DNA of 64,000 bases from Sugiyamaella lignohabitans (Eukaryota > Ascomycota > Dipodascomycetes > Dipodascales > Trichomonascaceae), in NCBI RefSeq assembly GCF_001640025.1, contig NC_031671.1, positions 186,001 to 250,000 of the forward strand, written 5' to 3'. Positions 1,822 through 62,923 of the stretch are shown here, in pieces. A program made the translations under genes and the position numbers. Each line of letters begins with the position of its first letter. Position 1 is the stretch's first letter. The notes beneath the pieces were generated by a model. That model saw nothing but the letters and a program-made list of their open reading frames with translations. It searched no databases and was not told where the DNA came from.

Positions 1822-1965
1822 TGCCTCCGGCGGCTGGGGCTCCGCCCCAGACCCCATTGCTCCTCTCGCTGCGCTCGAGTCGGTCCTGTCCACGGTCCGT
1901 CCCAGCGGCCTCCTGCGAAGCAGGAGCAACTAGGGTCTAGGGCGGAGCCCCAGACACCGGAGGCA
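1822..1965. repeat. GC-rich hairpin element, inverted pair
   Basis: A forward arm (TGCCTCCGGCGGCTGGGG start, Ser-type second hairpin ending CTCGAGTCG) and a reverse arm (CTCCTGCGAAGCAGGAG hairpin) flank a short spacer. The reverse arm has decayed near its end (CAGACACCGG instead of CAGCCGCCGG). It lies 340 bp beyond the aminopeptidase stop. Confidence 0.9.
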
Positions 1966-2085
1966 GCACCTGCCCCCCCTAAGAACTACCTTGTCACCGA
2001 TTTTAGGCCAGACATTCAAGCCATTTATAAGCTAGATAAAGATGAATTCTCGCTCGCTTGTCAGAGGTTCATTTCTATAACTGGA

Positions 2086-2236
2086 CATAGCACAGAACGG
2101 GCGATCACTGACATGTCAGTGATCGGTCATGTCAGTGAATGGGCATGTCAGTGAATGAACATATCAGTGAATAGACATGTCAGTGAACGGGCCTGTCAGT
2201 GAACGGACATAAGCACAGAACATGTCAGTGAACGCC
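2086..2236. repeat. 16-bp minisatellite, CATGTCAGTGAACGGG family
   Basis: Units of 16 bp run in tandem from 2112 to 2207 (six copies), with further copies at 2086-2101 (variant CATAGCACAGAACGGG) and 2221-2236. A shortened 13-bp variant sits at 2208-2220. Variation is mainly in the last four bases and in position 3-5. The same unit and the same variant occur again at 52144-52285. Confidence 0.92.
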
Positions 2237-2262
2237 CATATATTTTAATCTTAAAGTTTAGT

Positions 2263-3570
2263 GCCGGGTAACATCGCCACAAGGAAACTAGTAGGGTCCC
2301 TTAGTTCCGTTTGCATCAACTCCAGGTGACTCCATGGGCTGATTCATGCGAAACAATGTCCAAAATAAATATCTAGACTAGTATTTACATGGGTGCACAG
2401 CACAGCTAATTTTTCCATCCAAAATGATGTTTTTTTGTTAAAGTTGCAAGAAAGGTCCAAAAAACCGGGTAACATGTGGGTGATCCGCGTTGAAAACTTC
2501 TGCAATTTCAGCCCTCAGAATGAGTTTGAGCTCGCAAGAACTTATCTAAAATACATATCTAGACCAATGTCTTTAGTTAGCTATAGTAAATTACTATTTC
2601 TGCTCCATATAATGGGTTTGACTCGTGTGTAGCCTTGTGGCTTTCACAACTAATATGTACAGATGGCTGGTTTAACAGTAACTCAAGGTTCAGCTCGCGA
2701 ATTCGTTTTCCAGAATAAGTGGCTTCAAATAAGTCTCTGGGAGATCACATTCAATTAATATTTGTCTGGATTTCTGAGCTTTTGGATCAATGGAGAGAAT
2801 CGAAGGTGGGTAATGGAATGTCAAAGTCTAGTTCTTGATTAATGCCGGGTAACTCAGAAGTTTTAAAGAAGCAAAATATGATGGAATACTTCAAAGAAAC
2901 GTCCATTTACTGGTGTAAGACTTGGTATAACCTTAGAAGAGTTCGTCCAAATTAAAAAAAGATAACCATAAGAGCTGGCTCAAGTGCGAGCATTAGAAGA
3001 AGGACCGGTTAGAACACTGAGGAGCATTTTATGCCCTGGCCCCCTGTTTCCGTGAAGGCATTTCCGGGCCGAATGGGTTGGTCTATAAAATAATTTCCAG
3101 GATGAACATCCAGGATAATTTCGTCAGCTAATGGCAGACAAGTAGTACATTCGTCCGGTAGCATGGTCTCTGGTTCGAAGACCCAAGAGTGCTGATGGTT
3201 AGCAAAGAGCATGCTTAAGTTCTCCCAGCTAACATCCCTAGACGTGTCAGATTATATTACTTTTCCGAATTCGGATCATACAATAACTCTACGAGATGAA
3301 CTTAGCAATCTAAAGTGTCCAACTGATTGTGTTCAAGTATTATTTCCGTCTGATGTCATGGACTCTGCAAGTGTCGATTTAAGGTACCGAAGAGCCCCGA
3401 GAGATTTCTCGTCCCAAATTATGAGTAAGTGAGATCAAAATTAAAATAGTTCATTTTGTTGGATGCTCGTGGCCAGAGATGGGAAAAGGTACTTGTCGTC
3501 AATCTTGGGTCGTCTGGTTTATAGTGTCTCGAACAAGTCTTCTCTTTTTTGGAAATGCAATGCCGGGTAA
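2263..3570 (+). promoter_or_regulatory. Cluster of four Reb1-like sites
   Basis: CCGGGTAA occurs at 2264-2271, 2465-2472, 2845-2852 and 3563-3570, all on the plus strand, three of them followed by C. Reverse-complemented this is TTACCCGG, which contains the yeast Reb1 consensus TTACCCG. Site identity is by motif only. No gene start lies close, so the role is unclear. Confidence 0.45.
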
Positions 3571-4525
3571 TGCGTACAACCTAGTATTTTCTTCCAGTTT
3601 ATATTTTTCTAAGCTTGTTCGTGTGGTCTCAAATTTTTGGCTAGTATAGCAACTATGGAGAAGTGTGCTTAATAAACTTCCCCCCACCAGTACAACATTC
3701 CGAGCCCTGAATATGTTTCATATGGATGAAATTCTAGCTCTATCCTCAATCGAGCGATTCAAAGACAACATATTGTCACCTGCTTTGTCCGTCTGGTAGG
3801 CTCTAAATGGTTAAACTCCTTTCAATTTAATTTCCCAAAAAATAACTGGTAACTTGTCAGCTCATACCTTCCGATCAGGACTGCATATTCGTTTAAACTC
3901 TTAAACATTTGCTTTATGTTTTCCTTTCCACGACATTAACGCAGAGGGTTGGTACATAGTTGTCAATGGTAGCCGGAAGCTATCACTTCTCGTTCACAAA
4001 TCAACAGCCAGCAGGTCTCTAGATTTCAAAACAAAAAAACTACTCCGTTCAAAGCCAACTCAAACTAATTTGTCTAATATCTCCCATTCTATAGAATATA
4101 TATTATTTTTTTTTTTGATACTGCCCCATGAATTTATCTCTACAACCCTGCCTGAGGAATTGATTTACTTTGTTATATGCCCACAATCAACCTCTATATT
4201 CTAAAATCTCACGTCCAGACTCATAAACTTCTGAAGACGATGAGACTCCAATAAAAATAGTAAAGTTAAAAATAAATATTATAATCAAATCAGAGAGCCC
4301 ATAGCCGACGGTGATCAGGGTCTTCTATGCGGCAGAGTCTCGCTTCGCATGTATCTCCAAAACGCATCGGTCCTGCCAATCATAGATGTACAGACATTAT
4401 TGTTCTCTTTCGGCAAACAATCCTCTCCTCTAAATGTTCATATTCGCTCTTTATCTCTCTACACAGTTGCCCTCACGTCCGAAACCTTCTAAACTCGTCC
4501 TGTCGCAACACAGGGGTGCCAGCCC

Positions 4526-4662
4526 GGCCTCCGGCGGCTGGGGCTCCGCCCCAGACCCCGCTGCTCCTGCTTCGCAGGAGTTGCTGGGACCGTAGACGAA
4601 ACGACTCGAGCGTAGCGAGAGGAGCAGCGGGGTCTGGGGCGGAGCCCCAGCCGCCAGAGGCC
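4526..4662. repeat. GC-rich hairpin element, inverted pair
   Basis: Forward arm with CTCCTGC-TTC-GCAGGAG hairpin, about 20 bp spacer, then a reverse arm with the CTCGAGCGTAGCGAGAG hairpin. The outer end reads GCCGCCAGAGGC, one base off the consensus. Confidence 0.9.
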
Positions 4663-8524: not shown

Positions 8525-11500
8525 ATGAGCCACAGTGGATGGGCTGACTCGGTAATACCAACCGAGTCTGTGGCCAACACTGACTCACCTTGGGCTGAAA
8601 TCGAATCTGAAAACAAATCTGAGAACAAATCTGAGGATGCACCAGGCCGTGAAGTTGTGAGTAGTGCAACCGGTCCTTCTGGAAGATCAAACACACCTGT
8701 TATTCGAATCAATTCGTCGTCATCAACAAGCAGTTCACAACCTGATAATGCATTGACTGTGGAAGGTGATGACGATATTGAAGTAACTGATGCTATAGAG
8801 GGTCAAAATGAGCATCCATTTAGCCTTAGTCCTGATTTAAACCGATCACCTGGCCAGATTGGGGTTGTTTCCAGCTGCGAATCTTCACCAGATGCTGTCC
8901 ACACCTCAGGTGACGATGCACACATCCTTCAGAAAGAGAACGACGACCTTCGAACGGCGACATCAGAATCAGACAATATCATCATGGAGCTCAATATGGA
9001 TACTACCGTGCGATATCTCAGTGAATGTTGGGATGATATTGTAGGGTAAGTAGTAGTTATAAGATGACAATGAACGAAACTAGAACCTGGATGGATAACT
9101 AACACATGAACAGCATACCCAGCAAAAAAGTACTTCGGAGGCAAGTGTCGAAGATAATTCTAGGCGATGAGACAGACAAGAATGTTTTTGTTCAAGCTAC
9201 CGAGTCTATGAAGCGAGAAGATACCAGTTTCAGAGTTAGATTCATGGTTCGCATGGGGAACTTGACGAGGAAATTAGCAAATGCATCGAACGATGGCGAC
9301 GACACGATGGCAGATACGTTAGTACGACCTGGGGATGACTTGAGTCCGAATTCACAAGCTCTCGGTACGCCATCGCCACATTCTACAACGACAAGTCCAC
9401 GGCGAAATCGATATAAAAGATTAAGTCATACCCCCAGCAAACGGTCGTCTCGACGGCTACTATCCGACGATGAGGATCTGAAAATTCTCGATCTGAATGC
9501 CGACGATGCAGGCAACGATGCTGATGCCGATACCGACACAGATCCAGATGACTTTGATCATATGGATGAAGACATCGACGAAGATGACGACCACCCACTG
9601 AGTACAAGCGTACATTCCAATGACGAAGTGCATTCCATGACATCCAGCATCTCCCTAGACGACTACGACTCAGAGCTGCTCCTAGAGCTCGAGGGTCAAG
9701 GCATTTTAATCAAGCAATCAGGGAAACCATCCCATGTAAGTAACGACTCGAGCGAAGCGAGAGGAGCAATGGGGTCAGGGGCGGAGCCCCAGCCGCCGGA
9801 GGCAAAGAACGACACTAACGTATCAGACAATGTGGATTTTAAAACCATATGTTGCGCCCAAACAATTTAGCATAGATATTCCCACTGAACTGGTAGAGCG
9901 TCTGGGATTCGGCACCGAGGTGCTAGCAGACTTTCTAGAGACGCTTACGCAGTGTGCGATGGAAGATTCGGATGCGGTACCAGCTCCACCGCTGGTTTTG
10001 TGCCGGATTTGTGAGCGTCATTATACTACGTGGTGGTTTGAGAGGCATTCTGAGTTGTGCATGATTGAGCATAGGGCGGCGAGCGAGCTGGAAGAGACTC
10101 ATGAAGCGGTTCTAGAGCATCGATTAGTGATAACCGGGTTGCTAGGAGCGTTAGAACTGAGAATGAATTTTCATGTGTTTGATAGTCCATTAACGCCGTC
10201 TGGCTCGACATCGAGTTATGGATCTGTGACTGGAAGAAGTGGAAGCAGTAGTGGAAGCGGCAGTGGTAGTATTGGACTTGGTCCTAGTGCCGGAGGTGGA
10301 AGTGGTAGTGGTGGTGTTCCGAGTCTGGAATACAGAGGATATACTCTACAATTACCGCTGTTCCCGTCGGATTTGGTGTCTAATATTACAAGTAGCGGGC
10401 CAGGTGTTACGAATAATGCTGTGAATATTCCAAATACTGGTGGCAGTGTTGGTAGTATTGGCAGTTTACCGAGCAGTTTAGGATCTCCAGGACCTGTTAC
10501 AGTTGGTTCAGCTGGTAGTATTCCGATAAATGGGTCACCTCCTAGATCACCAAGGTTAGCATCGTCTCCTCTGTCGTCGGGATCGAACCGACGGGCCCTT
10601 CAAAGACCTGGAGCTATTCCAATTTCAGCGTCTTCAGTTCCTCATCCGTTTATGGGTAAACGATCTCCTATTCGAATTATGGAACTGCTGTTAGATCTGT
10701 GTGATGCTGCGATGCAGATTAAAAATCCCGAGATTATTATTGACGAGCACAATGAAGAAGGTGAAATAAGAGTTCATGCACACAGAAGCGAGATCAAGAT
10801 TTATGAAGTGTTGAATTGGATGCCACCATCGTCAATTGAAGACCCCGGGTTGGCTCTGTTGTGTGACGATACTATGAAATTTGCACGAGAAAAGGCAGCT
10901 GCTGCTTTGAGAATGGGTAATACGCTGCTCTACTCAGAGAAGATTCGACGTGAGACTGAGTTGCAAGTCCAGCAAGTTATACAAGATATTGGAGAGAAAG
11001 TAGCTACTGAAAGAGATTACGATGATAGTATGCTGGTGGATTATAATAGTGATAGTCGGAACAGCCAGGTGTTTTTTGATTCGGATCGCAGCAGCAGTGG
11101 TAGAGGATTTAGAGAGAATCGATTGGGTGGGGTGGGAAGAAAAGGTAGTAATGGTGGTGCTAGCACTGGAAGTAATGCAGGTTCTGGAATCTTTTCCAAC
11201 GCATATTTGCAAGCCGATGTTCTTCCTAACTCTGGTAATGCTACTCCTCCAAGAGTGCCTAGAGAAAGCAATATTTCTCCATATCAACTTCCAGCACAAC
11301 CCACGCCTACTTCGATGTTGCAAATGCAGCGACTGAATTTAGAAGACAGTGATTCTGGTGAACACCGAGAATTATCACCTTCTCCATCATCGTTTTCACC
11401 TTCAGCACCAGCTGCAGCGCCAGCTCAACCACCAGCTCCAGCACCATCACAAATCCCGTTGGCGACTCCTTCTGCTGCTTCGTCACCCTTGTCACAAATA

Positions 11501-15146: not shown

Positions 15147-15286
15147 TGCCTCCGGCGGCTGGGGCTCCGCCCCAGACCCTGGTTGCTCCTCTCGCTGCGC
15201 TCGAGTCGTTGCGTCTCGGTCGGGGGTTAAACTCCTGCGAAGCAGGAGCTACGGGGTCTGGGGCAGAGCCCCAGCCGCCGGAGGCA
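15147..15286. repeat. GC-rich hairpin element, inverted pair between convergent genes
   Basis: Forward arm with the CTCGAGTCG-type hairpin, then a reverse arm with the CTCCTGCGAAGCAGGAG hairpin. It starts 83 bp after the RIM15 stop and ends 81 bp before the SIS2 stop, so both transcripts probably read into it. It takes up nearly half of the 302-bp intergenic gap; the rest shows nothing else. Confidence 0.93.
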
Positions 15287-18427: not shown

Positions 18428-18558
18428 TGCCTCCGGCGGCTGGGGCTCCGCCCCAGACCCTGGTTGCTAGTTTTACTGTGCCAAGCCCCCTAGCAACGAC
18501 TCGAGCGCAGCGAGAGGAGCAACCAGGGTCTGGGGCGGAGCCCCAGCCGCCGGAGGCA
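18428..18558. repeat. GC-rich hairpin element, inverted pair
   Basis: Forward arm lacks a full second hairpin (TTGCTAGTTTTACTG instead); reverse arm with CTCGAGCGCAGCGAGAG is intact. Flanked outside by GGGGGTC and GAGCCCCCC, extending the inverted symmetry. Confidence 0.9.
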
Positions 18559-18774: not shown

Positions 18775-18941
18775 TGCCTCCGGCGGCTGGGGCTCCGCCC
18801 CAGACCCTGGTTGCTCCTGCTTCGCAGGAGTTTTTAGAGGGCCCAGTCCTGCCCCACGCCCCCCTCCCCCCTCCAGCAACGACTCGAGCGAAGCGAGAGG
18901 AGCAACCGGGGTCTGGTGCGGAGCCCCAGCCGCCGGAGGCA
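18775..18941. repeat. GC-rich hairpin element, inverted pair
   Basis: Forward arm with CTCCTGCTTCGCAGGAG, a C-rich spacer of about 50 bp, and a reverse arm with CTCGAGCGAAGCGAGAG. The reverse arm has one stem change (CTGGTGCGGAG). Confidence 0.9.
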
Positions 18942-19146: not shown

Positions 19147-19295
19147 TGCCTCTGGCGGCTGGGGCTCCGCCCCAGACCCTGGTTGCCCTCTCGCTTCGCT
19201 CGAGTCGTTTCTGGGGGTACTGGACTCACGAGCTGAAAACTCCTGCGAAGCAGGAGCAACCAGGGTCTGGGGCGGAGCCCCAGCCGCCGGAGGCA
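19147..19295. repeat. GC-rich hairpin element, inverted pair
   Basis: Forward arm (TGCCTCTGGCGGC, one change) with CTCTCGCTTCGCTCGAG, then a reverse arm with CTCCTGCGAAGCAGGAG. The two arms carry different second hairpins, so the pair is not a simple perfect foldback. Confidence 0.92.
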
Positions 19296-20087: not shown

Positions 20088-20151
20088 TTGGTGTTTGATA
20101 TTGAATGACCGACCCTCCAGGGGTTTTATCAGCCAGCAGACACCGCAACGG

Positions 20152-20206
20152 AGCTCGCGAAGCGAGCACAACGGGGTCTGGGGCAGCGCCCCAGCCGCCG
20201 GAGGCA
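20152..20206 (-). repeat. GC-rich hairpin element, short reverse arm with GCTCGC hairpin
   Basis: GCTCGCGAAGCGAGC (perfect 6-bp stem, 3-nt loop) followed by GGTCTGGGGCAGCGCCCCAG and GCCGCCGGAGGCA. This is the third second-hairpin variant of the family. Confidence 0.92.
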
Positions 20207-22222: not shown

Positions 22223-22360
22223 TGCCTCCGGCGGCTGGGGCTCCGCCACAGACCCTGGTTGCTCCTGCTTCGCAGGAGTTGGAGGGGACCGTGAAGCACG
22301 ACTCGAGCGCAGCGAGAGGAGCAACCAGGGTCTGGGGCGGAGCCCCAGCCGCCGGAGGCA
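22223..22360. repeat. GC-rich hairpin element, inverted pair, 55 bp after the cyclin stop
   Basis: Forward arm with CTCCTGCTTCGCAGGAG (stem change GCCACAG in the first hairpin), then a reverse arm with CTCGAGCGCAGCGAGAG. The outer flank continues as GACCCCGG. Confidence 0.93.
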
Positions 22361-23265: not shown

Positions 23266-23326
23266 CGACTCGAGCGTAGCGAGAGGAGCCGCGGGGTTTG
23301 GGGCGGAGCCCCAACCGCCGGAGGCA
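23266..23326 (-). repeat. GC-rich hairpin element, single reverse arm
   Basis: CGACTCGAGCGTAGCGAGAG to AACCGCCGGAGGCA, with GTTTGGGGCGG for the usual GTCTGGGGCGG. It lies 387 bp upstream of ECT1. Confidence 0.9.
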
Positions 23327-24964: not shown

Positions 24965-25016
24965 TGCCTCCGGCGGCTGGGCTCCGCCCAGACCGGGTTG
25001 TGCTCGCTTCGCGAGC
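24965..25016 (+). repeat. GC-rich hairpin element, single forward arm, 49 bp after the ECT1 stop
   Basis: TGCCTCCGGCGG then a first hairpin shortened by one pair (CTGGGCTCCGCCCAG at 24977-24991), then GCTCGCTTCGCGAGC. One G has gone from the left stem and one C from the right, so the stem stays paired. Confidence 0.9.
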
Positions 25017-25252
25017 TGAGGGGGGGGGTGGTCATGATTTCCAGCAACGCTAGTTAAATGCATGTTCTGAGGTTCAGGAAGACTGCGGGGCCACGTGATG
25101 ATATTCTAGGTGGTCCTCGCTTTATTACAGACCTTGTGAAAGCTAAAGGGGACAAGTAAAAACTCGTCAGTATAAAATTGTCTCGATCTGTTATTCTACA
25201 TTAAGCCGAGGCGAAATTTATATGTGACTAAGACGCAGGCGAGTCTCACCTA

Positions 25253-37590: not shown

Positions 37591-37898
37591 GGCTGTTGCG
37601 CCTCCGGCGGCTGGGGCTCTGCCCCAGACCCCGTTGTGCTCGCTTCGCGAGCTCCGTATACGTAGGTGCAATAAAAATAAATCTTCGCAACGCGAATACA
37701 ACGGGTCTGGGCAGCGCCCCGACCGCCGGAGGCAGATGCAGGGGAACGCAGGGTTCGTACAGGCCGTTACACGGCTGCAGACAGAAAAATGCGGCGTGAA
37801 AAATGCGATCGTCGTCTGCATAAAAAAATTAAATGTCCCTGGATATGGTCTGAAGAGCACCTGCTTTTGAACCGCTGTGCCAGTAAATAATAGCAAAT
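37591..37898. other. Short intergenic region before UTP14
   Basis: 308 bp, of which the hairpin element at 37599-37734 takes nearly half. The remaining 160 bp must hold the UTP14 promoter. I see no clear PAC or RRPE site there; the nearest is a GTGAAAAATGCGATC stretch. Confidence 0.6.
37599..37734. repeat. GC-rich hairpin element, inverted pair, 9 bp after a stop codon
   Basis: Forward arm with GCTCGCTTCGCGAGC and loop variant TCT in the first hairpin. The reverse arm is decayed (TCTTCGCAACGCGAA, CTGGGCAGCGCCCC, GACCGCCGG). It directly follows the oxidoreductase stop. Confidence 0.9.
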
Positions 37899-40663: not shown

Positions 40664-40776
40664 TGCCTCCGGCGGCTGGGGCTCTGCCCCAGACCCCGTG
40701 GCTCCTCTCGCTACGCTCGAGTCGTTGCGTCGGCGGTCCGGGCAACTCCTACGGAGCGGGGCAATGGGATCTGGAG
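40664..40776. repeat. GC-rich hairpin element, forward arm plus degraded reverse arm, 57 bp after the UTP14 stop
   Basis: The forward arm (40664-40725) is near perfect with TCT in the first loop and GCTACGC in the second. The reverse arm is recognisable only as ACTCCTACGGAGCGGGGCAA and GGGATCTGGAG, so it is decaying. Confidence 0.85.
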
Positions 40777-41288: not shown

Positions 41289-41459
41289 TGCCTCCGGCGG
41301 CTGGGGCTCCGCCCCAGACCCCGCTGCTCCTCTCGCTCCGCTCGAGTCGGATCTCGACGTTGCCGACCTGCAAATATCACACCGACACCCCCCTCGCCCG
41401 ACTCGAGCGAAGCGAGAGGAGCCGGGGGGTCTGGGGCGCAGCCCCAGCCGCCGGAGGCA
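41289..41459. repeat. GC-rich hairpin element, inverted pair
   Basis: Both arms carry the CTCTCGCTNCGCTCGAG second hairpin, with TCC and GAA centre loops on each side. The spacer is about 50 bp. The first hairpin of the reverse arm reads CTGGGGCGCAGCCCCAG. Confidence 0.93.
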
Positions 41460-43559: not shown

Positions 43560-43620
43560 CGACTCGAGCGAAGCGAGAGGAGCCACGGGGGTCTGGGGCA
43601 GAGCCCCAGCCTCCGGAGGC
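43560..43620 (-). repeat. GC-rich hairpin element, single reverse arm
   Basis: CGACTCGAGCGAAGCGAGAG to CAGCCTCCGGAGGC, with AGA in the first loop and one change (CCTCCGG for CCGCCGG). Confidence 0.9.
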
Positions 43621-43808
43621 CGACCCCCACCTCCAAACCCTCTAGCCGAGCCCGATCAGCGACCGACAGGGAGATTTTTGCCGTGCATTCGCATCGACCG
43701 ACCCCGTCGACGCAACTGCTCACGTTTCGAGGCCAGATAAGACGATCTGGCATGATCCGCCGTCAAACAATGGGGTTCTTGATCGGCATCGACTTGGGGA
43801 GGGGGGTG

Positions 43809-43865
43809 TGCCTCCGGCGGCTGGGGCTCCGCCCCAGACCCTGGTTGCTCCTGCTTCGCAGGAGT
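43809..43865 (+). repeat. GC-rich hairpin element, single forward arm
   Basis: Consensus TGCCTCCGGCGGC, CTGGGGCTCCGCCCCAG and CTCCTGCTTCGCAGGAG. No partner arm lies within 200 bp downstream; a reverse arm 190 bp upstream gives a divergent arrangement. Confidence 0.92.
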
Positions 43866-44280
43866 TGACGGGGGTGGAGTGGGTGCTAAGGGATTTGGGG
43901 GCTTTGGGGGTGGTGGTGGTGGAGTTGCTGCTGCTGCTCGATAACGCATGGCGTTTTCGTGCGCGCTTGCTGCAGCACATGTTTCATGCACGATAGAGCC
44001 CCCTATCTGAAGGTACTGCTTGGCTGCGAAACTAAACTAGCTTCACCGGTCACACAGCGATACTGAGATAGATGTGCATTGCATATGCAAGCTTAATACG
44101 ACCAGGCCAGCGAGTGGGGCAGGGCATTTCCACGGTACGGGACTCACACACACACCTTCAAGAAAACCCACCAACCAACCAACCAACCAATTAATCTAAA
44201 AAATAAAAATAATATCACACCACCCATCAGGACACTAACTACCGCACCGCACCGCACCCCTGACCGCACCCCCCCTCGCC

Positions 44281-44335
44281 GCTCGCGAAGCGAGCACAAC
44301 CAGGGTCTGGGGCGGAGCCCCAGCCGCCGGAGGCA
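44281..44335 (-). repeat. GC-rich hairpin element, single reverse arm with GCTCGC hairpin
   Basis: GCTCGCGAAGCGAGC, then CTGGGGCGGAGCCCCAG and GCCGCCGGAGGCA, followed by GACCCCCGGCCCCC. Confidence 0.93.
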
Positions 44336-44975
44336 GACCCCCGGCCCCCGATACCCGCACCCATCAGCAGCGACGGAGATTATTATGTCAGCATTGCAGG
44401 AGGCCATCAGGAGTCAAGTCGAGACAGGAAATAAAAAAAAGCATCGAGCAAGGTTCGAAGACTGCACAAGTGCCGATGCACCGAGTGTCTGCAGGAGCCC
44501 ACAGTGGATCTAGTGGTCGTACCAGTCAATGCACGAGGCCGGGTCGTGGCTGTCAGGTGCAGGTGCAGATGCAGCAGCAGGTGCAGCGTGCATGCGCGGG
44601 ATAGGCGATCTAGGCTGGTGGGGCTGGCAGGAGCAGCAGGAGCACCAGCGGTCGACGTGCGGAGGGCCTGCTGCTACGAGAGATCCAGTGAGATCTAGGG
44701 ACAGATCCAGGGGGGGGGGGAGGGGAATTGAGGGGTGCGATGTGCGAAGGGGGCAGGGCGAATAACTCGGTTTGTATTAAACTCTCAGGCCGTAAAAATA
44801 TTACTATTTTCTCGCCAAGGGACGGGATGGGCCGATTCGGTTGGGTACACCCGCGAAAACCCTGAACGGGAAGTATTAATAAATTTAAAGTTGAGGTCGT
44901 CGTCTTTGACACTATCGGGCCCGTTATCAGATGAGGCTGTCGGGCGGATCCCGTGCTCACTTGGGGACGGGGGCA

Positions 44976-45116
44976 GCCTCCGGCGGCTGGGGCTCCGCCC
45001 CAGACCCTGGTTGCTCCTGCTTCGCAGGAGTTGACGGGGGGGGGACCCTATGCACCGACTCGAGCGCAGCGAGAGGAGCAGCGGGGTCTGGGGCGGAGCC
45101 CCAGCCGCCGGAGGCA
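44976..45116. repeat. GC-rich hairpin element, inverted pair
   Basis: Forward arm with CTCCTGCTTCGCAGGAG, a G-rich spacer of about 25 bp, and a reverse arm with CTCGAGCGCAGCGAGAG. Both first hairpins are perfect. Confidence 0.93.
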
Positions 45117-45785: not shown

Positions 45786-45925
45786 TGCCTCCGGCGGCTG
45801 GGGCTCCGCCCCAGACCCCGCTGCTCCTCTCGCTTCGCTCGAGTCGGTTCCGTGGGGACTCCCCGCCAACTCCTGCGAAGCAGGAGCAACCAGGGTCTGG
45901 GGCGGAGCCCCAGCCGCCGGAGGCA
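45786..45925. repeat. GC-rich hairpin element, inverted pair
   Basis: Forward arm with CTCTCGCTTCGCTCGAG, reverse arm with CTCCTGCGAAGCAGGAG. Both first hairpins are perfect. The order of second hairpins is the opposite of the 44976 copy. Confidence 0.93.
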
Positions 45926-49369: not shown

Positions 49370-49426
49370 TGCCTCCGGCGGCTGGGGTTCCGCCCCAGAC
49401 CCGGGTTGCTCCTGCTCCGCAGGAGA
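49370..49426 (+). repeat. GC-rich hairpin element, single forward arm
   Basis: TGCCTCCGGCGGC, CTGGGGTTCCGCCCCAG (one stem wobble), CTCCTGCTCCGCAGGAG. Followed 18 bp later by another forward arm in the same orientation. Confidence 0.9.
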
Positions 49427-49443
49427 TAACGGTCTTTCCCCAC

Positions 49444-49582
49444 TGCCTCCGGCGGCTGGGGCTCCGCCCCAGACCCTGGTTGCTCCTGCTCCGCAGGAGA
49501 TACCGGGGATCGTGGCGCAAACGACTCGAGCGGAGCGAGAGCAGCAGCGGGGTCTGGGGCGGAGCCCCAGCCGCCGGAGGCA
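49444..49582. repeat. GC-rich hairpin element, inverted pair
   Basis: Forward arm with CTCCTGCTCCGCAGGAG, short spacer, reverse arm with CTCGAGCGGAGCGAGAG. The spacer motif TACCGGGG reappears before the next arm (49596). Confidence 0.93.
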
Positions 49583-49616
49583 GAGGGGAAGAAGTTACCG
49601 GGGCTCGGGACGGAAA

Positions 49617-49677
49617 CGACTCGAGCGGAGCGAGAGGAGCAGTGGGGTCTGGGGCGAAGCCCCAGCCGCCGGAGGCA
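49617..49677 (-). repeat. GC-rich hairpin element, extra reverse arm before the RSM10 3' end
   Basis: CGACTCGAGCGGAGCGAGAG to GCCGCCGGAGGCA, 77 bp from the RSM10 stop. Together with the preceding reverse arm it looks like a tandem copy (shared ACCGGGG...CGGAAACGACTCG flank). Confidence 0.92.
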
Positions 49678-50602: not shown

Positions 50603-51017
50603 ATCGCTCAATTGAAAAATATTAACTTTCTCACTTCCACAACTCACACCTGTTGATCTCATCATCTCGTGAACCTGCTTCCGAAAATTTCAGGGCCAGG
50701 GTTCACAATGTACGGCTGACGTCCCCCTCTGCCTCCGGCGGCTGGGGCTCCGCCCCGGACCCTGGTTGCTCCTGCTTCGCAGGAGTTGACTGGGATGGAG
50801 GGGTTCGACTCGAGCGGAGCGAGGGAAGCAATGGGGTTGGGGGAGCCATAGTCACTGGAGGTAAAATCTTGCCCCGTGACTGGATTGTGTCAGGTATACG
50901 TATTTTCCCACGCAAGATGGCGGGTGCCGATCAGAAGTGTCGATCAATTTATTTTCTAGAGCATGAATCGGATTTGATTCTAGTGGTTGGAAATATTGGA
51001 TTGAAAAATTAGGGATC
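50603..51017. other. Divergent promoter region of RSM10 and BMT2
   Basis: 415 bp containing a degenerate hairpin element (50730-50862). Promoters of two ribosome-related genes share this gap. No clear PAC motif is visible. Confidence 0.65.
50730..50862. repeat. GC-rich hairpin element, decaying inverted pair in a promoter
   Basis: Forward arm is good except CGCCCCGGAC at the first hairpin. The reverse arm is strongly decayed (CGACTCGAGCGGAGCGAGGG, then TTGGGGGAGCCATAGTCACTGGAGG). Confidence 0.85.
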
Positions 51018-51930: not shown

Positions 51931-52087
51931 TGCCTCCGGCGGCTGGGGCTCTGCCCCAGACCCCGTGGCTCCTCTCGCTCCGCTCGAGTCGTTACGTCGA
52001 GGGTCCTGTTCTCCGGGGTCGGACTGCCTCTGGTGGCTGGGGCTCCGTCCCAGACCATGATTGCTCCTCTTGCTCCGCTCGAGTCGT
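51931..52087 (+). repeat. GC-rich hairpin element, two forward arms in tandem
   Basis: Arms at 51931-51992 and 52025-52087 in the same orientation, each with CTC(T)GCTCCGCTCGAGTCG. The second is more diverged (TGGTGGCTGGGG, CCGTCCCAG, CTTGCTCC). The tandem layout differs from the usual inverted pair. Confidence 0.9.
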
Positions 52088-52726: not shown

Positions 52727-52788
52727 CGACTCGAGCGAAGCGAGAGGAGCAACCAGGGTCTGGGGCGGAGCCCCAGCCGCCGGAGGCA
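52727..52788 (-). repeat. GC-rich hairpin element, single reverse arm, 45 bp beyond the AVT1 stop
   Basis: CGACTCGAGCGAAGCGAGAG to GCCGCCGGAGGCA, all hairpins consensus. Confidence 0.93.
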
Positions 52789-52832
52789 GTGAGGTAGAGA
52801 GAGTATTAATATACATTAGGAAGAGTAGGAGA

Positions 52833-54815
52833 TTATTCGCGGCCAATGAGGTCGGCAGGAAGCATGCACCAGATGGTGCCGACGATGGCGAGGATGGAGA
52901 AGAAGACGAGAAGGATGTAGTCGAGGATGAGCTCGAATTTGGAGATGCGGCCCGCGTAGAGTTTGAGGTAGAAGGAGAGGGGGAGGATCATGCAAATGGT
53001 GACGCAGAGCAGACTGCCGAAGAATGCGATGATACGGTCGAAGTCTGGGAAGGCAATGGCCATGAGCACGAAGCTGGCGACTACACTGACCCGCACGAGG
53101 AATTTGCCAATTCGAGCACCGAAATGGTGGCTTGTTTTGTCACCGAATTCTACTTTGTCAATACCGAAGAGGATGTCTAAAGTACTAACAATGGGTCGAG
53201 CATTGAGAGGTGTCTTGGCAAGTGGAATTGTAGCGATTAGCAGGGTGATGAGATAGTTTAATGATTCAGGGTAGCCAGGGGTGAGAAGAATGCTCTTCGT
53301 GACCTCGTCCATAACATCCTGGCCAAACATGAGAAATCCTAGTACTCCCATAGAAGCGTCTACTAAGAAAGTAATTTTATATGTGGTCTTAAGACACTGG
53401 CCGTATTTCTGAGGATGTCTCATGTCTCGGTAGATATTGGGGAACACGGCATGTCCACCCCAGGGAGCCATGAAAATACCTATAGACATTGGCAACAGTG
53501 ACCACTTCTCGGGCCACATCCAGGTTGTAGCAGGGTGAAGCAAAGATCCGGGACTGTCAGCTTTATAAAACCCGTCGAAAAGTACAATTACTACGAGTGC
53601 AAAGGTGGCAGTGATACCCATGATACTAGAAAAACTGAGGATTCTCAGAGGAAGGAAACATGGAGGGGTGAGAATGGCAAATGCGACAAACTTCCATTGT
53701 AATTGACTGATAGAGGGGACCAGCGAATGAAGTGAGTCGGAAAACAAGACTACAAGTGAGACTCCAGCACCCATGAGTTCAATTGTAAAGAGCATGGATA
53801 CAAGAATACGTGCTCGCGAACCGAATGCCGCATAAGCAACATCGGCATATGTAACAATAGTACTGTCGGTATCAAGGCATTTGGCAAGAAGTTTGGCAGA
53901 GTAGAATGTGGATGCTGCTGAAATAACCAGGAGTATACATCCAATGACCCAACCAGCATATCTAAAACCAAGAGGCAGTGCTAGTAAACCAATACCGATG
54001 AGAATGTTGACTGAGTTGAACACAGTTTGCGGAGCAGTAGACTGACCAGCAATTACAGTAGTGATATGACCATCCTCGTCCTCGACTTTTTGAATAATAA
54101 CAGGATCCTGTTCTGTACCGGTGGATATGGCCTGTGATTCACCGAGAATATGTGTTCCTTGGTCAGGTTCAGCGGTGTATAACGACAGTCTTCTTGATCT
54201 TGGGTGTCGACGGTTGTGAGTGGGGATATTCAAGTATCCCCCAGAAGTTGAGGTACTTTTATAAGACCCATACAGGGATTCATTATGACCGAGTAAATGG
54301 TCTGTTTGAGATGGTTCGGTGCCCCCTGTGGATATATGGCCAGATGCGTCTTCGTTGTCGTCTAAATAGGTCGAACTTTCATAGCCATCTTCATCAATAG
54401 CATCGGTAAAATCAGTTCCCTCATCGAAATGAGGTCTGTATCTGGATGCAAAGCTCGAGGGAATAACAGGAGAACCAGTTTCATCAAAAAATGATCTCTG
54501 TCGAGATATTTCGCTAGGAGGTTCAATCGCCAAGAACGACTGAGCTCTAGTATAGGACGAAGCAAAGTGCTCGATGGAATTAAGTCCACCACCTGCTCCG
54601 TTAAAAAAAGACGATCTTCGCGACGAAGTCAAATTGCCGGAACCAATACCACCACCAGTAGTGGTAGTACCACCAGTTCCAAGACCAGGAGTCCCGTAAG
54701 TCGCAGAACTTGGCAATCCCGAAGTGCTCGAACCTCCATGCCAAGCAGACGACCCATGAGCTGCTGACCCGTTCCTATCAGGAGACGAGGGTATCTGGGA
54801 ATTAGTACCGGGCAT
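52833..54815 (-). CDS. AVT1: Vacuolar amino acid transporter, Avt1-like (AAAP family)
   Basis: 660 residues. A Ser/Gly-rich cytosolic N-terminus of about 255 residues is followed by eleven predicted membrane segments, beginning APQTVFNSVNILIGIGLLALPLGFRYAGW, the signature first helix of AAAP (Aa_trans) transporters. The rest includes VTYADVAYAAFG, MGAGVSLVVLFSDSL, MAPWGGHAVFPNIYRDMRHPQKY and ATIPLAKTPLNARPI. Length and long N-terminal tail match S. cerevisiae Avt1 (602 residues), a proton-coupled importer of neutral amino acids into the vacuole. Other Avt paralogues (Avt3/4) are mostly different in the membrane core, so Avt1 is my best call. Start: the ATG at 54815 is the first in frame. Confidence 0.9.
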   Translation of the reverse strand: MPGTNSQIPSSPDRNGSAAHGSSAWHGGSSTSGLPSSATYGTPGLGTGGTTTTGGGIGSGNLTSSRRSSFFNGAGGGLNSIEHFASSYTRAQSFLAIEPPSEISRQRSFFDETGSPVIPSSFASRYRPHFDEGTDFTDAIDEDGYESSTYLDDNEDASGHISTGGTEPSQTDHLLGHNESLYGSYKSTSTSGGYLNIPTHNRRHPRSRRLSLYTAEPDQGTHILGESQAISTGTEQDPVIIQKVEDEDGHITTVIAGQSTAPQTVFNSVNILIGIGLLALPLGFRYAGWVIGCILLVISAASTFYSAKLLAKCLDTDSTIVTYADVAYAAFGSRARILVSMLFTIELMGAGVSLVVLFSDSLHSLVPSISQLQWKFVAFAILTPPCFLPLRILSFSSIMGITATFALVVIVLFDGFYKADSPGSLLHPATTWMWPEKWSLLPMSIGIFMAPWGGHAVFPNIYRDMRHPQKYGQCLKTTYKITFLVDASMGVLGFLMFGQDVMDEVTKSILLTPGYPESLNYLITLLIATIPLAKTPLNARPIVSTLDILFGIDKVEFGDKTSHHFGARIGKFLVRVSVVASFVLMAIAFPDFDRIIAFFGSLLCVTICMILPLSFYLKLYAGRISKFELILDYILLVFFSILAIVGTIWCMLPADLIGRE

Positions 54816-56554
54816 TTTATCTGTGTAAAGTCTAATGCTTGATGCTATTTGTGGTAAATTCCACTTGATTTAGTCTGTGTCTCGAATCTGACTTGACTAT
54901 CTGAACGTAATCAATTTAGAGTACTCTCTCTGAATCTGATGTAATATCGACTTAGTCTGACTGATCTGGTTAATCCTTTAACTGGTTCAACTGAAACCTC
55001 TTCACCTGTCCTAATCACCTGTCCTAATCACCAGTCCTATTAACCAGCCAAATTAACCCTTTTTCAGGTCTTGATCCAATTGATTCACTCAACACTAACT
55101 AAACAGTGTTCAGTGTTCAATCAACTCCATAAACTCAGCTACCGATAGTAGACACTTGTTCGAGAATACTCTACCAGTAACCTCCTGACAAACCAACAGC
55201 AGGCCAACTGACAAACGAACAGCAACCTCCTGACAAACCAACACACGCACGGACCAACTGAAGACAAATGTGCTTTCTAGAACTTTTCAGGTCTAATTAA
55301 ACCAATAAACCAACTTTTGCAACTTCACAAACGAAATTGATTTCTCGTTTACTCCTACTGATAAAGCAGTGTTCAAACCACAAATACCAGCCTAGCTATT
55401 TGCGTAAAAAGGTCACTTACTGGCGGATGTGCACCACTGATAAGGATCCAAACGCGAGGTAGGTTTCGGTTATTCGCGGGGTGTGAGCAGTGATTTTCCT
55501 GCTACCTTCTGACTCTCGATATCTGATCTAATGCTGGCTTCTCACCAACAAATTTAACCAATTATCAACGAACTTTCGAATCAACAGTCAAACCAAATGT
55601 GAGTTAACTAACAAACTAAACAAAAATCACAAGTGAACCAACTGAAACACTACCCTAGCTCTATCCCTATAAAAGCTAAATCCCTATGATTTCTTCCTGC
55701 CGTTCGTTATAAGTGAAGATCAGCGATGGAAACAGGCCGCTGCTGCACACTTTAAAATACACCCCTTGACAGCTCTTTAACCTAACATCCAAAGATTAGA
55801 TAACCGATCTCCAGCCAACAGCACCACTGCTCCTGATACGCGAGCCAACGAGCCCGTCAGCCGCTTTGTTGCCGTGCGATAACCCCCCTCCCGCTCTCTC
55901 TCTCACTCCCTCTCCATTCATCCGTCCATGCTCCAGCCGTCCTCGACCCCAACTGGGCAATTGCCAAAACCCCCTGAATCCACTTCACCACTCACTCACA
56001 TCCTCACTTCACGAAAACCAGTCAAATAACGATTCCAAAAAAAAAAACTTTCCAAGCGAACGGGTCAACCCAGAACCCAGACCCTCACCGACAACGATCG
56101 AGCCCCGATGGTCCGCTTCCTCTTCCTCTTTCAGCACACCCCCCTACATTGCATTGCATCGACGAAGACAACAACCACCTCCCGAGCCCTTATCAGCGCG
56201 CTCCGCCAGCCAACCAACTCACCTCCGGGCTCTTCAGGGGGCTTCTGGTGTAGGGAGTGTGCCTCCGGCGGCTGGGGCTGCGCCCCAGACCCCGCGGCTC
56301 CTCTCGCTGCGCTCGAGTCGGGCGTCGGGGGTGAGTCAGGCCGGGGATTTTTGGGGGTCCAGAGCCCCGCGAATTGGCCTCGTTCGACTCTGGTTCAGCT
56401 CCTGACCCACCCCTGACGCCCGACTCGAGCGCAGCGAGAGGAGCCGCGGGGTCTGGGGCGCAGCCCCAGCCGCCGGAGGCACGCACGTGACCCCCATGTA
56501 CGTAAACCGGTGAAGTAGAGAGAGCAGGATCAGAGGAAGATAGAGGAAGTTGTA
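54816..56554. other. Intergenic region between divergent AVT1 and the MGR1-like gene
   Basis: 1.7 kb without a credible gene. Most is AT-rich and shows repeated small words such as CCTGTCCTAATCACC near 55010 and AACCTCCTGACAAACCAAC near 55180-55240. The last 300 bp contains the longest foldback element (56260-56480), ending 74 bp before the MGR1-like ATG. Confidence 0.7.
56260..56480. repeat. GC-rich hairpin element, long foldback with extended inner symmetry
   Basis: Both arms end in CTCGAGTCG/CGACTCGAG and the inverted symmetry continues inward: GGGCGTCGGGGGTGAGTC after the left arm pairs with the reverse complement of CCTGACCCACCCCTGACGCC before the right arm. First-hairpin loops are CTG and GCA type (CTGGGGCTGCGCCCCAG). 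Central unpaired part about 80 bp. Confidence 0.94.
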
Positions 56555-57553: not shown

Positions 57554-57592
57554 CATTCTCAACTGTATATATTTTACTCTCATTCTCCGGTC

Positions 57593-57849
57593 TGCCTCCG
57601 GCGGCTGGGGCTCCGCCCCATACCCTGGTTGCTCCTCTCGCTCTGCTCGAGTCGGGTTTGGAGGGTCTGCCTCTGGCAGCTGGGGCGCTGCCCCAGACCC
57701 CGTGGCTCCTCTCGCTCCGCTCGAGTCGGGCGAGGGGTGTCCAGATCGTGGAGACTTCCCCACGCTCGACTCGAGCGAAGCGAGAGGAGCAACCAGGGTC
57801 TGGGGCGGAGCAACCAGGGTCTGGGGCGGAGCCCCAGCCGCCGGAGGCA
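57593..57849. repeat. GC-rich hairpin element, three arms between convergent genes, with an internal duplication
   Basis: Two forward arms (57593-57655, 57668-57729) and one reverse arm (57767-57849). The reverse arm contains CAACCAGGGTCTGGGGCGGA twice in tandem, the only such duplication in the window. The first arm starts 39 bp after the MGR1-like stop; the last ends 17 bp before the polymerase stop. Confidence 0.93.
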
Positions 57850-57866
57850 GACCCCCACCCTCGGTG

Positions 57867-60384: not shown

Positions 60385-60446
60385 CGACTCGAGCGAAGCG
60401 AGAGGAGCCACCAGGGCCTGGGGCGGAGCCCCAGCCGCCGAAGGCA
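60385..60446 (-). repeat. GC-rich hairpin element, single reverse arm
   Basis: CGACTCGAGCGAAGCGAGAG to GCCGCCGAAGGCA, preceded by GGACGCCCGACGCCC, the same inner flank seen in the foldbacks at 56260 and 61440. GGGCCTGGGG replaces GGGTCTGGGG. Confidence 0.92.
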
Positions 60447-60614: not shown

Positions 60615-60861
60615 TGCCTCCGGCGGCTGGGGCTCCGCCCCAGACCCTGGTGGCTCCTGCTTCGCAGGAGAGGCGGAAGGACCGGGGTTTTTACGGTCGA
60701 TTGAGGTCCTAAAACCCGCTCTGTGACCCTAAAAGCGGACCTAAACCGCCCAAATAAACCCGTCTCCTGCTCCGCAGACGTTTCCCCAACCCCCACACCC
60801 GACTCGAGCGTAGCGAGAGGAGCAACCAGGGTCTGGGGCGGAGCCCCAGCCGCCGGAGGCA
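60615..60861. repeat. GC-rich hairpin element, inverted pair with a 130-bp spacer
   Basis: Forward arm 60615-60670 (CTCCTGCTTCGCAGGAG) and reverse arm 60800-60861 (CTCGAGCGTAGCGAGAG). The spacer also carries TCTCCTGCTCCGCAGACG near 60763, a damaged second hairpin. Confidence 0.9.
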
Positions 60862-61333
60862 CACCCCCTGGCAGACCCCTATATTTATGCCAGGGCAAGG
60901 GTTAGAGACCGTTACGGAGATATGTGTATAAGGGACGGGGAGACCAGCCATCGCCATATCGAACTGATAGGAGCAGATGACCGTCAGTCATTATCATTGC
61001 CGATAGCCATCAGGAGCCCAATACCAGCGACCAGCACGTGAGACTGTCTTCGATTCATTGCCAGCAGGTGTCCAGCCAGTATTCTACGCACGCCACTTCA
61101 TTGATAGAAGTGTGTTAGGTGCCAAAACCAAGAGCCAGCCAGCCAGCAGCCAGCCAGCACGGCATCGCCGCTCACTCGATCCTCCAACAGAACCCGCAAT
61201 CTCAGGACGGGTTCCAGGAAGCTCCGCCTGATCTGACTTCGAGCACATTTCTTAACTCGTGCCAGTCGTGCAATTAACTAACAAACCACACAAACCACAC
61301 AAACTACACACTCACGAAGAAGACCACACAGCC

Positions 61334-62209
61334 ATGTCAGGAGCCCGGAAGAAGACCATGCTCAAGGTCATTATCCTTGGCGATTCCGGTGTCGGAAAGA
61401 CGTCTCTCATGTAAGTCACGCATTCCGGGGAGGTGGACATGCCTCCGGCGGCTGGGGCTCCGCCCCAGACCCTGGTTGCTCCTCTCGCTTCGCTCGAGTC
61501 GGGCGTCGGGGACGGGGTTTTGATCGTTTCCCCTCGCTGGTTTGACCCCTGACAACTGGACGCCCGACTCGAGCGAAGCGAGAGGAGCAACCAGGGTCTG
61601 GGGCGGAGCCCCAGCCGCCGGAGGCACACCCCGACCCTTTGCGACACGGACTAACTGGTTTACAGGCAGCAATACGTGAACAAGAAGTTCTCGACGCAGT
61701 ATAAAGCCACAATTGGCGCTGATTTTTTGACCAAGGAGACTTATTTGGACGACCGCCGAGTGGTGATGCAGATTTGGGACACGGCCGGCCAGGAACGGTT
61801 CCAGTCGTTGGGAGTGGCCTTTTATAGAGGAGCCGACTGTTGTGTGCTCATGTACGATGTCAATAATGCCAAATCTTTTGAGGCGCTGGAGAACTGGCGT
61901 GACGAATTTCTGATCCAGGCCAATCCTCGTGACCCCGACTCGTTCCCGTTTGTTGTTATTGGTAACAAAATTGATGTCGAGGACTCGAAACGGGCTGTCA
62001 GCACTAAACGAGCTCAGGCATTCTGTGCTTCCAAAGGCAATCTTCCGTACTTTGAAACCAGTGCTAAAGAAGCCACCGGGGTCGAACAAGCGTTTGAAGT
62101 AGTCGCACGAAACGCTCTCCAGCAAGAAGACGCCCAAGATTTCAGCCAGGAGTACTCCGACGCTATTAATATCAACCTGGACTCGGACTCCTCCTCCTGT
62201 GCCTGTTAA
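61334..62209 (+). CDS. YPT7: Rab7-type small GTPase Ypt7
   Basis: Exons 61334-61410 and 61666-62209 give 206 residues. P-loop GDSGVGKT at 16-23; the intron splits codon 26 (AT|G). Then [24 protein letters not shown] (switch I), WDTAGQE, NKIDVED and ETSAKEA. It ends with CAC, a CXC double-geranylgeranylation signal. The sequence and length (208 in S. cerevisiae) match Ypt7, which with HOPS drives vacuole and late endosome fusion. The start ATG lies in ACAGCCATGTCAGG, the first ATG after a CA-rich leader. Nothing looks damaged; the intron is nearly filled by a foldback element. Confidence 0.97.
61411..61665 (+). other. YPT7 intron carrying a foldback element
   Basis: 255 nt, phase 2, 5' GTAAGT, branch GACTAACTG, 3' TTTACAG. 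Bases 61440-61626 are the element, leaving 29 nt on the 5' side and 39 nt on the 3' side (68 nt in all). Confidence 0.95.
61440..61626. repeat. GC-rich hairpin element, full foldback inside an intron
   Basis: Left arm TGCCTCCGGCGGC...CTCTCGCTTCGCTCGAG then GGGCGTCGGGG, a spacer, then GGACGCCCGACTCGAGC and the reverse arm ending GCCGGAGGCA. The arms match almost base for base, and the GGGCGTC/GACGCCC extension is shared with the 56260 copy. Confidence 0.95.
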
Positions 62210-62386
62210 TTCTCTCTTCTTCCCAATCAACCATTTCCAGTGTTCCTGGTTTCGGTTCTTTGACTCACACCCTTGACTTTTGTCCCCGCAATTCTCACTA
62301 GACTGCCTGCTTATGACTGTCCGACGCCAGCTGCCGTTTTTATTTTATTTTTTGTCTCTTAATCCACATCCTCTGCCGTGTCCTCG

Positions 62387-62544
62387 TGCCTCCGGCGGCT
62401 GGGGCTCCGCCCCAGACCCTGGTTGCTCCTCTCGCTCCGCTCGAGTCGTTCCGTCAACGCCCCCTGCCAAGTCCACGGACCTCGCCAACTCCTGCGAAGC
62501 AGGAGCAGCCAGGGTCTGGGGCGGAGCCCCAGCCGCCGGAGGCA
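62387..62544. repeat. GC-rich hairpin element, inverted pair, 178 bp after the YPT7 stop
   Basis: Forward arm with CTCTCGCTCCGCTCGAG, reverse arm with CTCCTGCGAAGCAGGAG; all first hairpins perfect. Confidence 0.94.
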
Positions 62545-62869
62545 GGCCCCCCAGTCAGTCGGACCCGACCCCGGATTCCAACCCCGGATTTAAGTCTCCC
62601 CTTTCGCCCGGGTGCTGCGACCCCGGACTGATGGAGCTTTGAAATATCGCGGCCCGCAATGGCTGTCTCGGGTGTGCGGCCCATCATTGCCGGTTTCGCT
62701 GTTATCGGGGTGTCAGAGGCGTGTGGATTGCCGTGTTTATTTTAACTTTGTTTGTCTCCAAATATAAATATAAATATAAATAATCTACCCCGGACCCCAG
62801 TTTTTATCCTCACTTCTGGCTATTTTTTTCTCGGCAGTTTTTTTAAGGTGAGTTTGGGGAATGGGGGTT

Positions 62870-62923
62870 TGCCTCCGGCGGCTGGGGCGCTGCCCCAGAC
62901 CCCGTTGTGCTCGCTTCGCGAGC
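62870..62923 (+). repeat. GC-rich hairpin element, single forward arm with GCTCGC hairpin
   Basis: TGCCTCCGGCGGC, CTGGGGCGCTGCCCCAG (loop GCT) and GCTCGCTTCGCGAGC. Confidence 0.93.

Follow-up and report, generated by a model that had tools for sequence, protein, structure and literature searches.

A 64,000-base window of the genome of the yeast Sugiyamaella lignohabitans (positions 186001-250000 of contig 3, in an assembly of 15,932,016 bases and 4 contigs) carries a dispersed family of GC-rich hairpin elements, which lie among nuclear-type genes on a 2.77-Mb contig. The basic unit is an arm which, as the initial annotation of the window had proposed, consists of three modules, namely a head (TGCCTCCGGCGGC), a first hairpin (CTGGGGC-NNN-GCCCCAG) and, after a linker of AGACCC plus a few bases, a second module. 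Three hairpins had been described for this last position; A (CTCCTGC-TTC-GCAGGAG) and C (GCTCGC-TTC-GCGAGC) are indeed perfect hairpins, whereas B (CTCTCGC-TNC-GCTCGAG) is imperfect. A search with the head pattern GGCGGCTGGGGCNNNGCCCCAG at up to 3 mismatches gave 93 raw matches in the window and 0 in 100 shuffles. As the palindromic hairpin may match both strands, doubles were removed, leaving 52 arms (26 per strand) in 31 clusters spanning positions 1822 to 62927, roughly the 33 loci and 50 arms counted before. Rfam gave no match above the gathering score within the window.

As had been claimed, the arms occur singly, as inverted pairs and in tandem, both in the window and beyond it. Inverted pairs with the order A..B lie at 4526..4662, 18775..18941, 22223..22360 (55 bp past the stop, at 22168, of a cyclin gene), 44975..45116 and, with a long centre, 60615..60861. 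The order B..A is seen at 1822..1965 (144 bp long, 340 bp past the stop at 1482 of an M1 aminopeptidase gene), 15147..15286 (past the stop at 15064 of the kinase gene discussed below), 19147..19295, 45786..45925 (the 140-bp copy used as query) and 62387..62544 (following a Ras-family GTPase gene). B..B pairs occupy 41289..41459 (with a long centre), 56260..56481 (both arms with the uncommon loop TGC) and 61440..61626, the last within an intron (61411-61665) of the same GTPase gene, which we take to be YPT7-like. One second module is untyped in the pairs at 18428..18558 (the left one, the right being B) and 37599..37734 (C..untyped, 9 bp past the stop at 37590 of a Gfo/Idh-family gene). More complex clusters comprise two tandem B arms on the plus strand at 51931..52082, four arms at 49370..49677 (tandem A, A, then inverted B, B) and three B arms at 57593..57849 (two tandem, one inverted), 40 bp past the stop at 57553 of an Mgr1-family gene (56567-57553, so named from its Pfam match).

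The lone A arms are at 27414..27471 (minus), 43809..43866 (plus) and 50730..50787 (plus, with a decayed B partner at 50806-50862), and lone C arms are found at 20149..20206 (minus), 24965..25022 (plus), 44278..44335 (minus) and 62870..62927 (plus). The second of these C arms is 50 bp past the stop at 24915 of a cytidylyltransferase gene, presumably ECT1-like; a lone B arm at 23269..23326 (minus) lies upstream of a cytidylyltransferase gene. Further lone B arms are located at 9747..9804 (minus), within the intron that spans about 9736-9826 in a kinase/response-regulator gene assumed by us to be RIM15-like; at 40664..40721 (plus, with a faint partner next to it), 57 bp past the stop at 40607 of UTP14; at 43564..43621 (minus); at 52731..52788 (minus), past the stop of a minus-strand gene for an amino-acid transporter (52833-54812); and at 60389..60446 (minus). 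Gene identities in the window come from Pfam matches where available, and the three narrower names are our own refinement of such matches.

For statistics, the window was combined with 28 further genome stretches (L006-L033) into a sample of 29 stretches and 304,000 bases; L007-L009 were picked for density, the remaining stretches were spaced at round intervals, and L001-L005 and L037-L042 were excluded from the counts. Genes were defined, with no use of annotation, as open reading frames (ORFs) of at least 200 amino acids with less than 5% arm coverage, their starts being less certain than their stops. The sample holds 223 arms in 136 clusters, which with their borders make up 6.6% of the sequence, and six of the 29 stretches are element-free. 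The search for arms across the whole genome, which the initial annotation had recommended, returned 3139 and 3188 heads on the two strands at up to 2 mismatches (about 6,300), against 0 for the reversed-pattern control; a pattern for the compact A-to-B junction had 589 + 612 = 1,201 exact matches, with 0 in its control.

Second modules of the 223 arms were typed as A in 61, B in 119, C in 24, D in 6 and E in 4, with 9 untyped. Beyond the terminal TGCC, some 13 bp of G-rich sequence appear to be part of the unit; the canonical form accordingly reads 13 G-rich bases, an A core, a spacer near ATTGCTGGGACCGTCGACGGAA, a B core and 13 C-rich bases, the compact A+B inverted pair measuring about 140 bp, or about 166 bp with the G-rich borders. 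When folded as single-stranded RNA, one 166-nt copy (45786..45925 plus borders) forms a long hairpin of -144.5 kcal/mol (z -13.8). There are 65 inverted pairs of up to 260 bp, 36 of which are compact (up to 150 bp). That the two arms of a pair "often" differ in their second hairpins proved an understatement, as 31 of the 32 compact pairs with both arms typed are A+B, the other being C+D (4 more have an untyped arm); the 29 longer pairs are mixed, with 10 A+B, 9 B+B and 10 others. The notion of interchangeable parts is only partly borne out, free exchange of second hairpins being unsupported in view of this fixed A+B composition and of the strong association of hairpin loop with linker (Cramer's V 0.53). 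Additionally, the loops match between the two arms in 38 of 58 pairs, where 30.3 would be expected (p 0.004). Among the tandem forms, L018:7100-7300 holds three C arms with a 68-bp period, the border TTTGGGTGGTTGTT being included in the repeat. In two arms (window 57793-57849 and L020 near 6329) 17-18 bases are duplicated in tandem at the same place; the segment comprises the linker and the 3' half of hairpin 1 and may be particularly prone to slippage.

The elements are strongly biased in their position relative to genes. Of 63 stops, 24 are followed by a cluster within 60 bp, whereas 2 of 62 starts have one that near (Fisher p 1e-6, sample ORFs); at up to 200 bp the counts are 37 stops and 9 starts (Fisher p 3e-7). 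The distances from stop to element peak at 42-56 bp, an interval chosen post hoc that contains 14 of the 37 cases within 200 bp where 2.8 would be expected if they were even. Further, lone arms near stops are mostly in the sense orientation (23 sense, 8 antisense; 23/31, p 0.011). These preferences, together with the near-invariance of the cores, are what one would expect if the hairpins were functional 3'-end elements, acting as terminators, 3'-end stabilisers or insulators, with selection keeping the cores and any compositional gradient around them a by-product. We regard this as unlikely, if still worth serious consideration, in that 23 of the 63 stops have no element within 400 bp, five of the six element-free stretches contain ORFs of at least 200 amino acids, so that the element is dispensable for any given gene, and pairs near stops have no preferred orientation (A comes first in 5, B in 4 and C in 1). 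It also does not predict the two-sided, strand-asymmetric gradient described below.

The unit is, as initially held, dispersed, repeated and without coding capacity. Its description as intergenic needs qualification: few arms lie in ORFs (1 of 223, a figure partly built in by the exclusion of ORFs with more than 5% arm coverage from the gene set), while seven of 134 clusters, against 0.9 expected, are intronic, lying between the 5' splice site and the branch point/3' splice site, two of them in the window (9747-9804 and 61440-61626). A mechanical intron search yielded 35 candidates, of which seven have an element and only some of the other 28 look convincing. With the unit subtracted, the residual lengths of the seven intronic cases (49-69 nt in six, 33 nt in one) suggest insertion into ordinary introns. 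In none of the seven are the splice sites at the element's own ends, the 5' splice site instead lying 11-29 nt before the unit; the branch site is outside the unit and the splice-signal sequences differ, which sets these introns apart from introner elements. A predicted S. lignohabitans Dcp2-like protein (P0001), the single protein matched by a search with the translated element, reads through an A+B element, and of 14 solved Dcp2 chains nine match it up to residue 87 and five up to 107. A coding role for the arm, which is open in several frames and also in P0001, was considered and discarded, as the Val-Ser (GTGAGT) following the conserved stretch reads as the beginning of an intron; judged from the sequence, the element in P0001 is apparently an unrecognised intron.

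The more telling feature of the family is not mobility, it is the composition of the DNA on either side of the elements. GC skew to the right of an element exceeds that to the left by 0.260 (standard error 0.024; right above left in 99 of 119), whereas random control points more than 800 bp from elements give -0.009 (74/135). The difference is 0.273 with noncoding bases only (95% confidence interval 0.219-0.329; 89/106), and with flanks of up to 300 bp right exceeds left in 25/30 cases in the window, 16/20 in the loci chosen for density and 67/77 in the systematic loci. Overall GC content rises too, from 0.41 beyond 800 bp to 0.52 at 15-30 bp in noncoding DNA and, at third codon positions (GC3), from 0.38 beyond 800 bp to 0.50-0.67 across the bins nearer than 200 bp. 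Over their last 100 bp, the 33 genes whose stop is followed by an element at no more than 100 bp have a GC3 of 0.664; for 18 genes with every element over 1 kb away the figure is 0.415, and the two sets converge at 600-1200 bp.

This rise is confined to one base per strand. On the strand running toward the element, C accounts for 0.44 of third positions close by and 0.19 far away, with G constant at 0.17-0.19, and in noncoding DNA C is elevated only to the left of elements and G only to the right; in both settings the asymmetry reaches about 1 kb. Plain GC-biased gene conversion as the sole cause was rejected, since only C rises on the toward strand. Where a gene runs toward an element, the share of its two-fold pyrimidine codons with a final C is 0.84 at 15-100 bp and declines to 0.34 at distances over 1.5 kb; two-fold purine codons remain between 0.33 and 0.45, and four-fold A falls from 0.32 to 0.14 in favour of C. 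Third-position C rises toward the element in 33 of 36 genes that have one within 200 bp past the stop, as compared with 7 of 16 controls, and third-position G is unchanged in those genes (17/36). Genes running away show four-fold G of 0.37 and 0.43 at 100-300 bp (123 and 204 sites) versus 0.15, with C flat. As it is G and not C that these genes gain, the sign is not set by the direction of transcription, and the asymmetry reverses across the element's centre, with few codons available for the away-running genes. In the window, the last 66 codons of the transporter gene (52833..53033, minus strand) have a GC3 of 0.85 versus 0.35 mid-gene, with all 14 two-fold pyrimidine codons ending in C, and those of UTP14 (40407..40607, plus strand) 0.74 versus 0.55, with 0.91 of 11 such codons ending in C. 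The chitin synthase gene, which has no nearby element, stays at 0.30-0.33 throughout; it and the cyclin gene each entered these window calculations with 1 inner stop, and a Pol eta gene, read in a wrong frame with 19 inner stops, was excluded from them.

The asymmetry is graded with the number of arms, the right-minus-left skew being 0.182, 0.325 and 0.530 for 1, 2 and 3 or more arms (n 58, 56 and 11; rho 0.33, p 1e-4). Both sides of lone arms are asymmetric without polarity (on the outer side p is 0.06 when only noncoding DNA is counted); pooled data alone hinted at a larger effect toward TGCC, an idea dropped with a per-element p of 0.91 and a noncoding p of 0.33. The gradation bears on the idea that the footprint is not caused by the elements, which would merely settle in GC-rich, skew-switching hotspots of breakage or open chromatin that were already there. 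Element density does track noncoding GC outside the elements (rho 0.77), and a consensus-like spacer, possibly the mark of a younger copy, goes with stronger asymmetry. Against this preference stand, besides the dependence on arm number, the rarity of element-free sequence of such composition (among 522 overlapping windows at distances above 1 kb, 1% reach a GC3 of 0.55) and the opposite sign of the skew, -0.153, at 19 element-free gene 3' ends, leaving it, in our estimation, quite unlikely. Bidirectional transcription outward from the element, with transcription-associated mutational asymmetry on both sides, would give the right sign, as outward transcripts would show an excess of A-to-G on their coding, outward strand, a signature that we know as background. 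The four-fold loss of A to C is outside that signature, and sense transcription of a gene toward the element would oppose the asymmetry; we consider this the least probable of the explanations, with a very slim chance of being correct. Replication origins would give the same skew sign but are disfavoured, in that the effect is lost within about 1 kb.

A second contrast is internal to the element. In an alignment of 31 A+B units, departures from consensus affect 4.0% of sites in the cores as opposed to 41.3% in the spacer and 47.3% in the borders, and core and spacer divergence are not significantly correlated (rho 0.17, p 0.36). Heads are perfect across all 19 bases in 169 of 223 arms, and a profile search added 27 hits, 12 of them above 15 bits, where reversed sequence gave none above 10. 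Among 100 spacers listed out of the 1,201, distances from consensus spread continuously from 1 to 19 edits, the shuffled mean being 13.6. Near-invariant cores, diverged spacer and borders and few decayed arms together argue against a plain burst of miniature inverted-repeat transposable elements (MITEs), and recent mobility finds no support as the main story, the initial annotation having suggested a small mobile or recombining unit; the cores are either corrected by copying from other loci or held by selection.

A MITE-like DNA transposon family that spread in a recent burst, with the arms as terminal inverted repeats around a non-conserved centre, would nevertheless account for the inverted arms, the length of about 140 bp, the thousands of copies, the insertion into introns and, subject to the filter mentioned above, the scarcity of arms in ORFs. 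We hold it to be very unlikely for several reasons. As first noted in the window, there is no target-site duplication beyond what shuffled pairs give, be it by longest common substrings, fixed offsets or diagonals (longest flank direct repeat 5.66 versus 5.63 shuffled, n=65 pairs). Spacer divergence is ten times core divergence and covers a continuous range, and heads outside compact pairs (singles and longer pairs) are perfect as often (113/151) as inside them (56/72). The genome has no match to the MULE or DDE_3 transposase domains, and the gradient would go unexplained. Private inverted matches of at least 10 bases at the borders were seen in 5 of 65 pairs (about 0.5 expected), too few to build on.

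As to other mobilising enzymes, the Y1 (RAYT-type) transposase PF01797 had 0 hits in the genome, with positive controls in 5 of 14 genomes; Helitron and hAT searches gave no signal in the genome and none in their controls either, and are uninformative. Reverse-transcriptase hits number 13, of which the six loci inspected all lack arms. Retroelement copies were considered as natural empty sites and were uninformative, all six loci being armless. Two of the six (L041 and L042, C3:654501-660000 and C3:701501-707000) are 99% identical over 4.67 kb; theirs is a retroelement with several high-scoring copies in the genome that has probably been active in the recent past. No match to the hairpin element exists in the plasmid, phage and viral collections searched; one viral contig contains the head motif. 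Two other repeats were noticed in the window. Units of ATGTCAGTGAA, mostly 16 bp apart, lie at 2104-2232 and 52145-52281; allowing 1 mismatch, the window has 19 matches where 1.84 would be expected. A recurring motif, GCCGGGTAAC, is found at 2263-3571, 25926-26335 and 31920, with 9 matches at the same tolerance against an expected 1.82.

In yeast, hairpins and inverted repeats are known fragile sites. An outward, two-sided, strand-unequal and repeated process fits the resection and resynthesis of breaks or the resynthesis that follows fork stalling, and we tentatively favour, at somewhat less than even confidence, the interpretation that the footprint results from recurrent repair of breaks or stalled forks centred on the hairpins. 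The arm would fold into a hairpin or cruciform, at which the DNA would break or forks would stall time and again; the sequence next to it would then be opened and synthesised anew, proceeding outward in both directions for between a few hundred bases and about 1 kb. Over successive rounds this would produce a mirror-image footprint, with T and A giving way to C on the strand running 5'->3' toward the element and G gained on the outward strand, the direction of these substitutions being read from base composition only. The cores, as the sole part common to all loci, would be kept uniform by copying from other elements, and the spacer and borders, which would have no ectopic template, would drift.

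A number of observations weigh against this interpretation. The four-fold G gain in away-running genes is missing at 15-100 bp (40 sites), and the aminopeptidase gene, with an element 340 bp off, shows no rise (GC3 of 0.50, 0.53 and 0.48). Two clusters that were detected solely as decayed hits in the profile search have an asymmetry of 0.647 (n=2), off the trend with arm number. Across 30 A+B elements the asymmetry is weaker where the spacer is more diverged (rho -0.40, p 0.027), which, if spacer divergence measures age, speaks against simple accumulation with age. Selection could equally keep the cores uniform; the linkage of loop and linker means that the cores are not freely reshuffled; and core divergence is biased low, cores having been retrieved by core similarity, even if a sensitive profile search still gave few relics. 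Elements and footprints may also share a cause. Finally, the sample covers 304 kb only, with three of its 29 stretches chosen as dense and its genes based on ORFs.

The closest precedent for the footprint is that of meiotic break hotspots: human meiotic breaks are reported to show strand asymmetry that switches across the break centre (PMC7615360). The yeast asymmetry differs in being tied to a repeat, read from base composition and extended up to about 1 kb, and its net change from T/A to C on the toward strand departs from the human break spectrum as given there. In the open literature searched we found no published report of such a composition footprint at repeats, and the asymmetry of the flanks is a new observation. 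Likewise, no published nuclear family of this kind was found in the open literature covered, which did not include the genome paper (Bellasio et al. 2016), where repeats may be mentioned.

In architecture, the family recalls several known systems. The REPINs/REP-BIMEs of bacteria, as described in PMC3116915, are likewise short, non-coding extragenic palindromes occurring as singlets, inverted doublets and tandem clusters, with conserved ends, a less conserved spacer and a long single-strand hairpin; two inverted units with a spacer forming a hairpin are indeed what the 65 inverted pairs present. REPIN singlets, however, are more diverged than doublets, whereas the arms outside and inside compact pairs are alike in this regard. 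The yeast unit further differs in its residence in a eukaryotic nucleus, the lack of a detected Y1 transposase, its conserved arms outside compact pairs, its heterotypic A+B doublets, its intron sites and its element-centred, strand-asymmetric footprint. MITEs and foldback elements share terminal inverted arms, short length, lack of coding capacity and dispersal near genes; the yeast unit has no target-site duplication, no partner transposase in the families searched, and near-invariant arms around a diverged centre. Two tandem hairpins, as in an A or C arm, also characterise the double-hairpin elements of yeast and chytrid mitochondria. The yeast unit is, like mitochondrial GC clusters, a GC-rich palindromic element, and the similarity extends to GC-rich hairpins with constrained stems, merger and shuffling, and an unclear mobiliser (PMC4478555). 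It differs from the clusters in being nuclear, in its roughly 6,300 heads, fixed A+B composite and 13-bp G-rich borders, and in having no target-site duplication, where the clusters have a putative AG duplication (same source).

The nearest look-alike in sequence is bacterial. The 28-mer CCGGCGGCTGGGGCTCCGCCCCAGACCC matches a single stretch in the prokaryote collection, on a Desulfovibrionaceae contig just past a gene, and the metagenome-assembled genome concerned has 13 heads at up to 1 mismatch. The exact head is present in 2 of 297 genomes drawn from the same phylum, that genome included. Dispersed intergenic elements with the head GCCTCCGGCGGC, some right after genes, are found in this Desulfovibrionaceae genome and in one other of its phylum (L034:4653-4735, L035, L036 and L043-L054). 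In several copies of these palindromic intergenic elements the head GCCTCCGGCGGC, a hairpin and ACCCC follow in the same order as in yeast; they differ in being bacterial, in their variable hairpin stems and in that no A or B second module was seen. On sequence grounds, the resemblance may reflect either shared origin or convergence.

A more far-reaching and decidedly speculative proposal, which may have a modest chance of being right, is that the arms constitute a self-maintaining drive: they would provoke their own breakage and be repaired from sister copies, which would keep the core uniform and let arms accumulate into pairs and tandems, and in the process the genes around them, down to their synonymous sites, would be rewritten from T/A to C in mirror image. 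Such arms would be a nuclear, eukaryotic counterpart of the GC clusters of mitochondria, and may share an origin with the Desulfovibrionaceae hairpins.

Some consequences are practical. Elements in introns may explain misannotated proteins such as P0001. Sample-wide, third-position composition varies with the distance and side of the nearest element, confounding measures of codon usage. Should the proposed repair process hold, caution would be in order wherever synonymous-site composition is interpreted in this organism, as it would vary with distance from the elements. It would further tie the instability of hairpins to codon usage and base composition genome-wide, provide an instance of a repeat kept uniform without obvious transposition, and make the thousands of natural copies in this yeast a ready-made experiment on the effect of a hairpin upon the DNA surrounding it.

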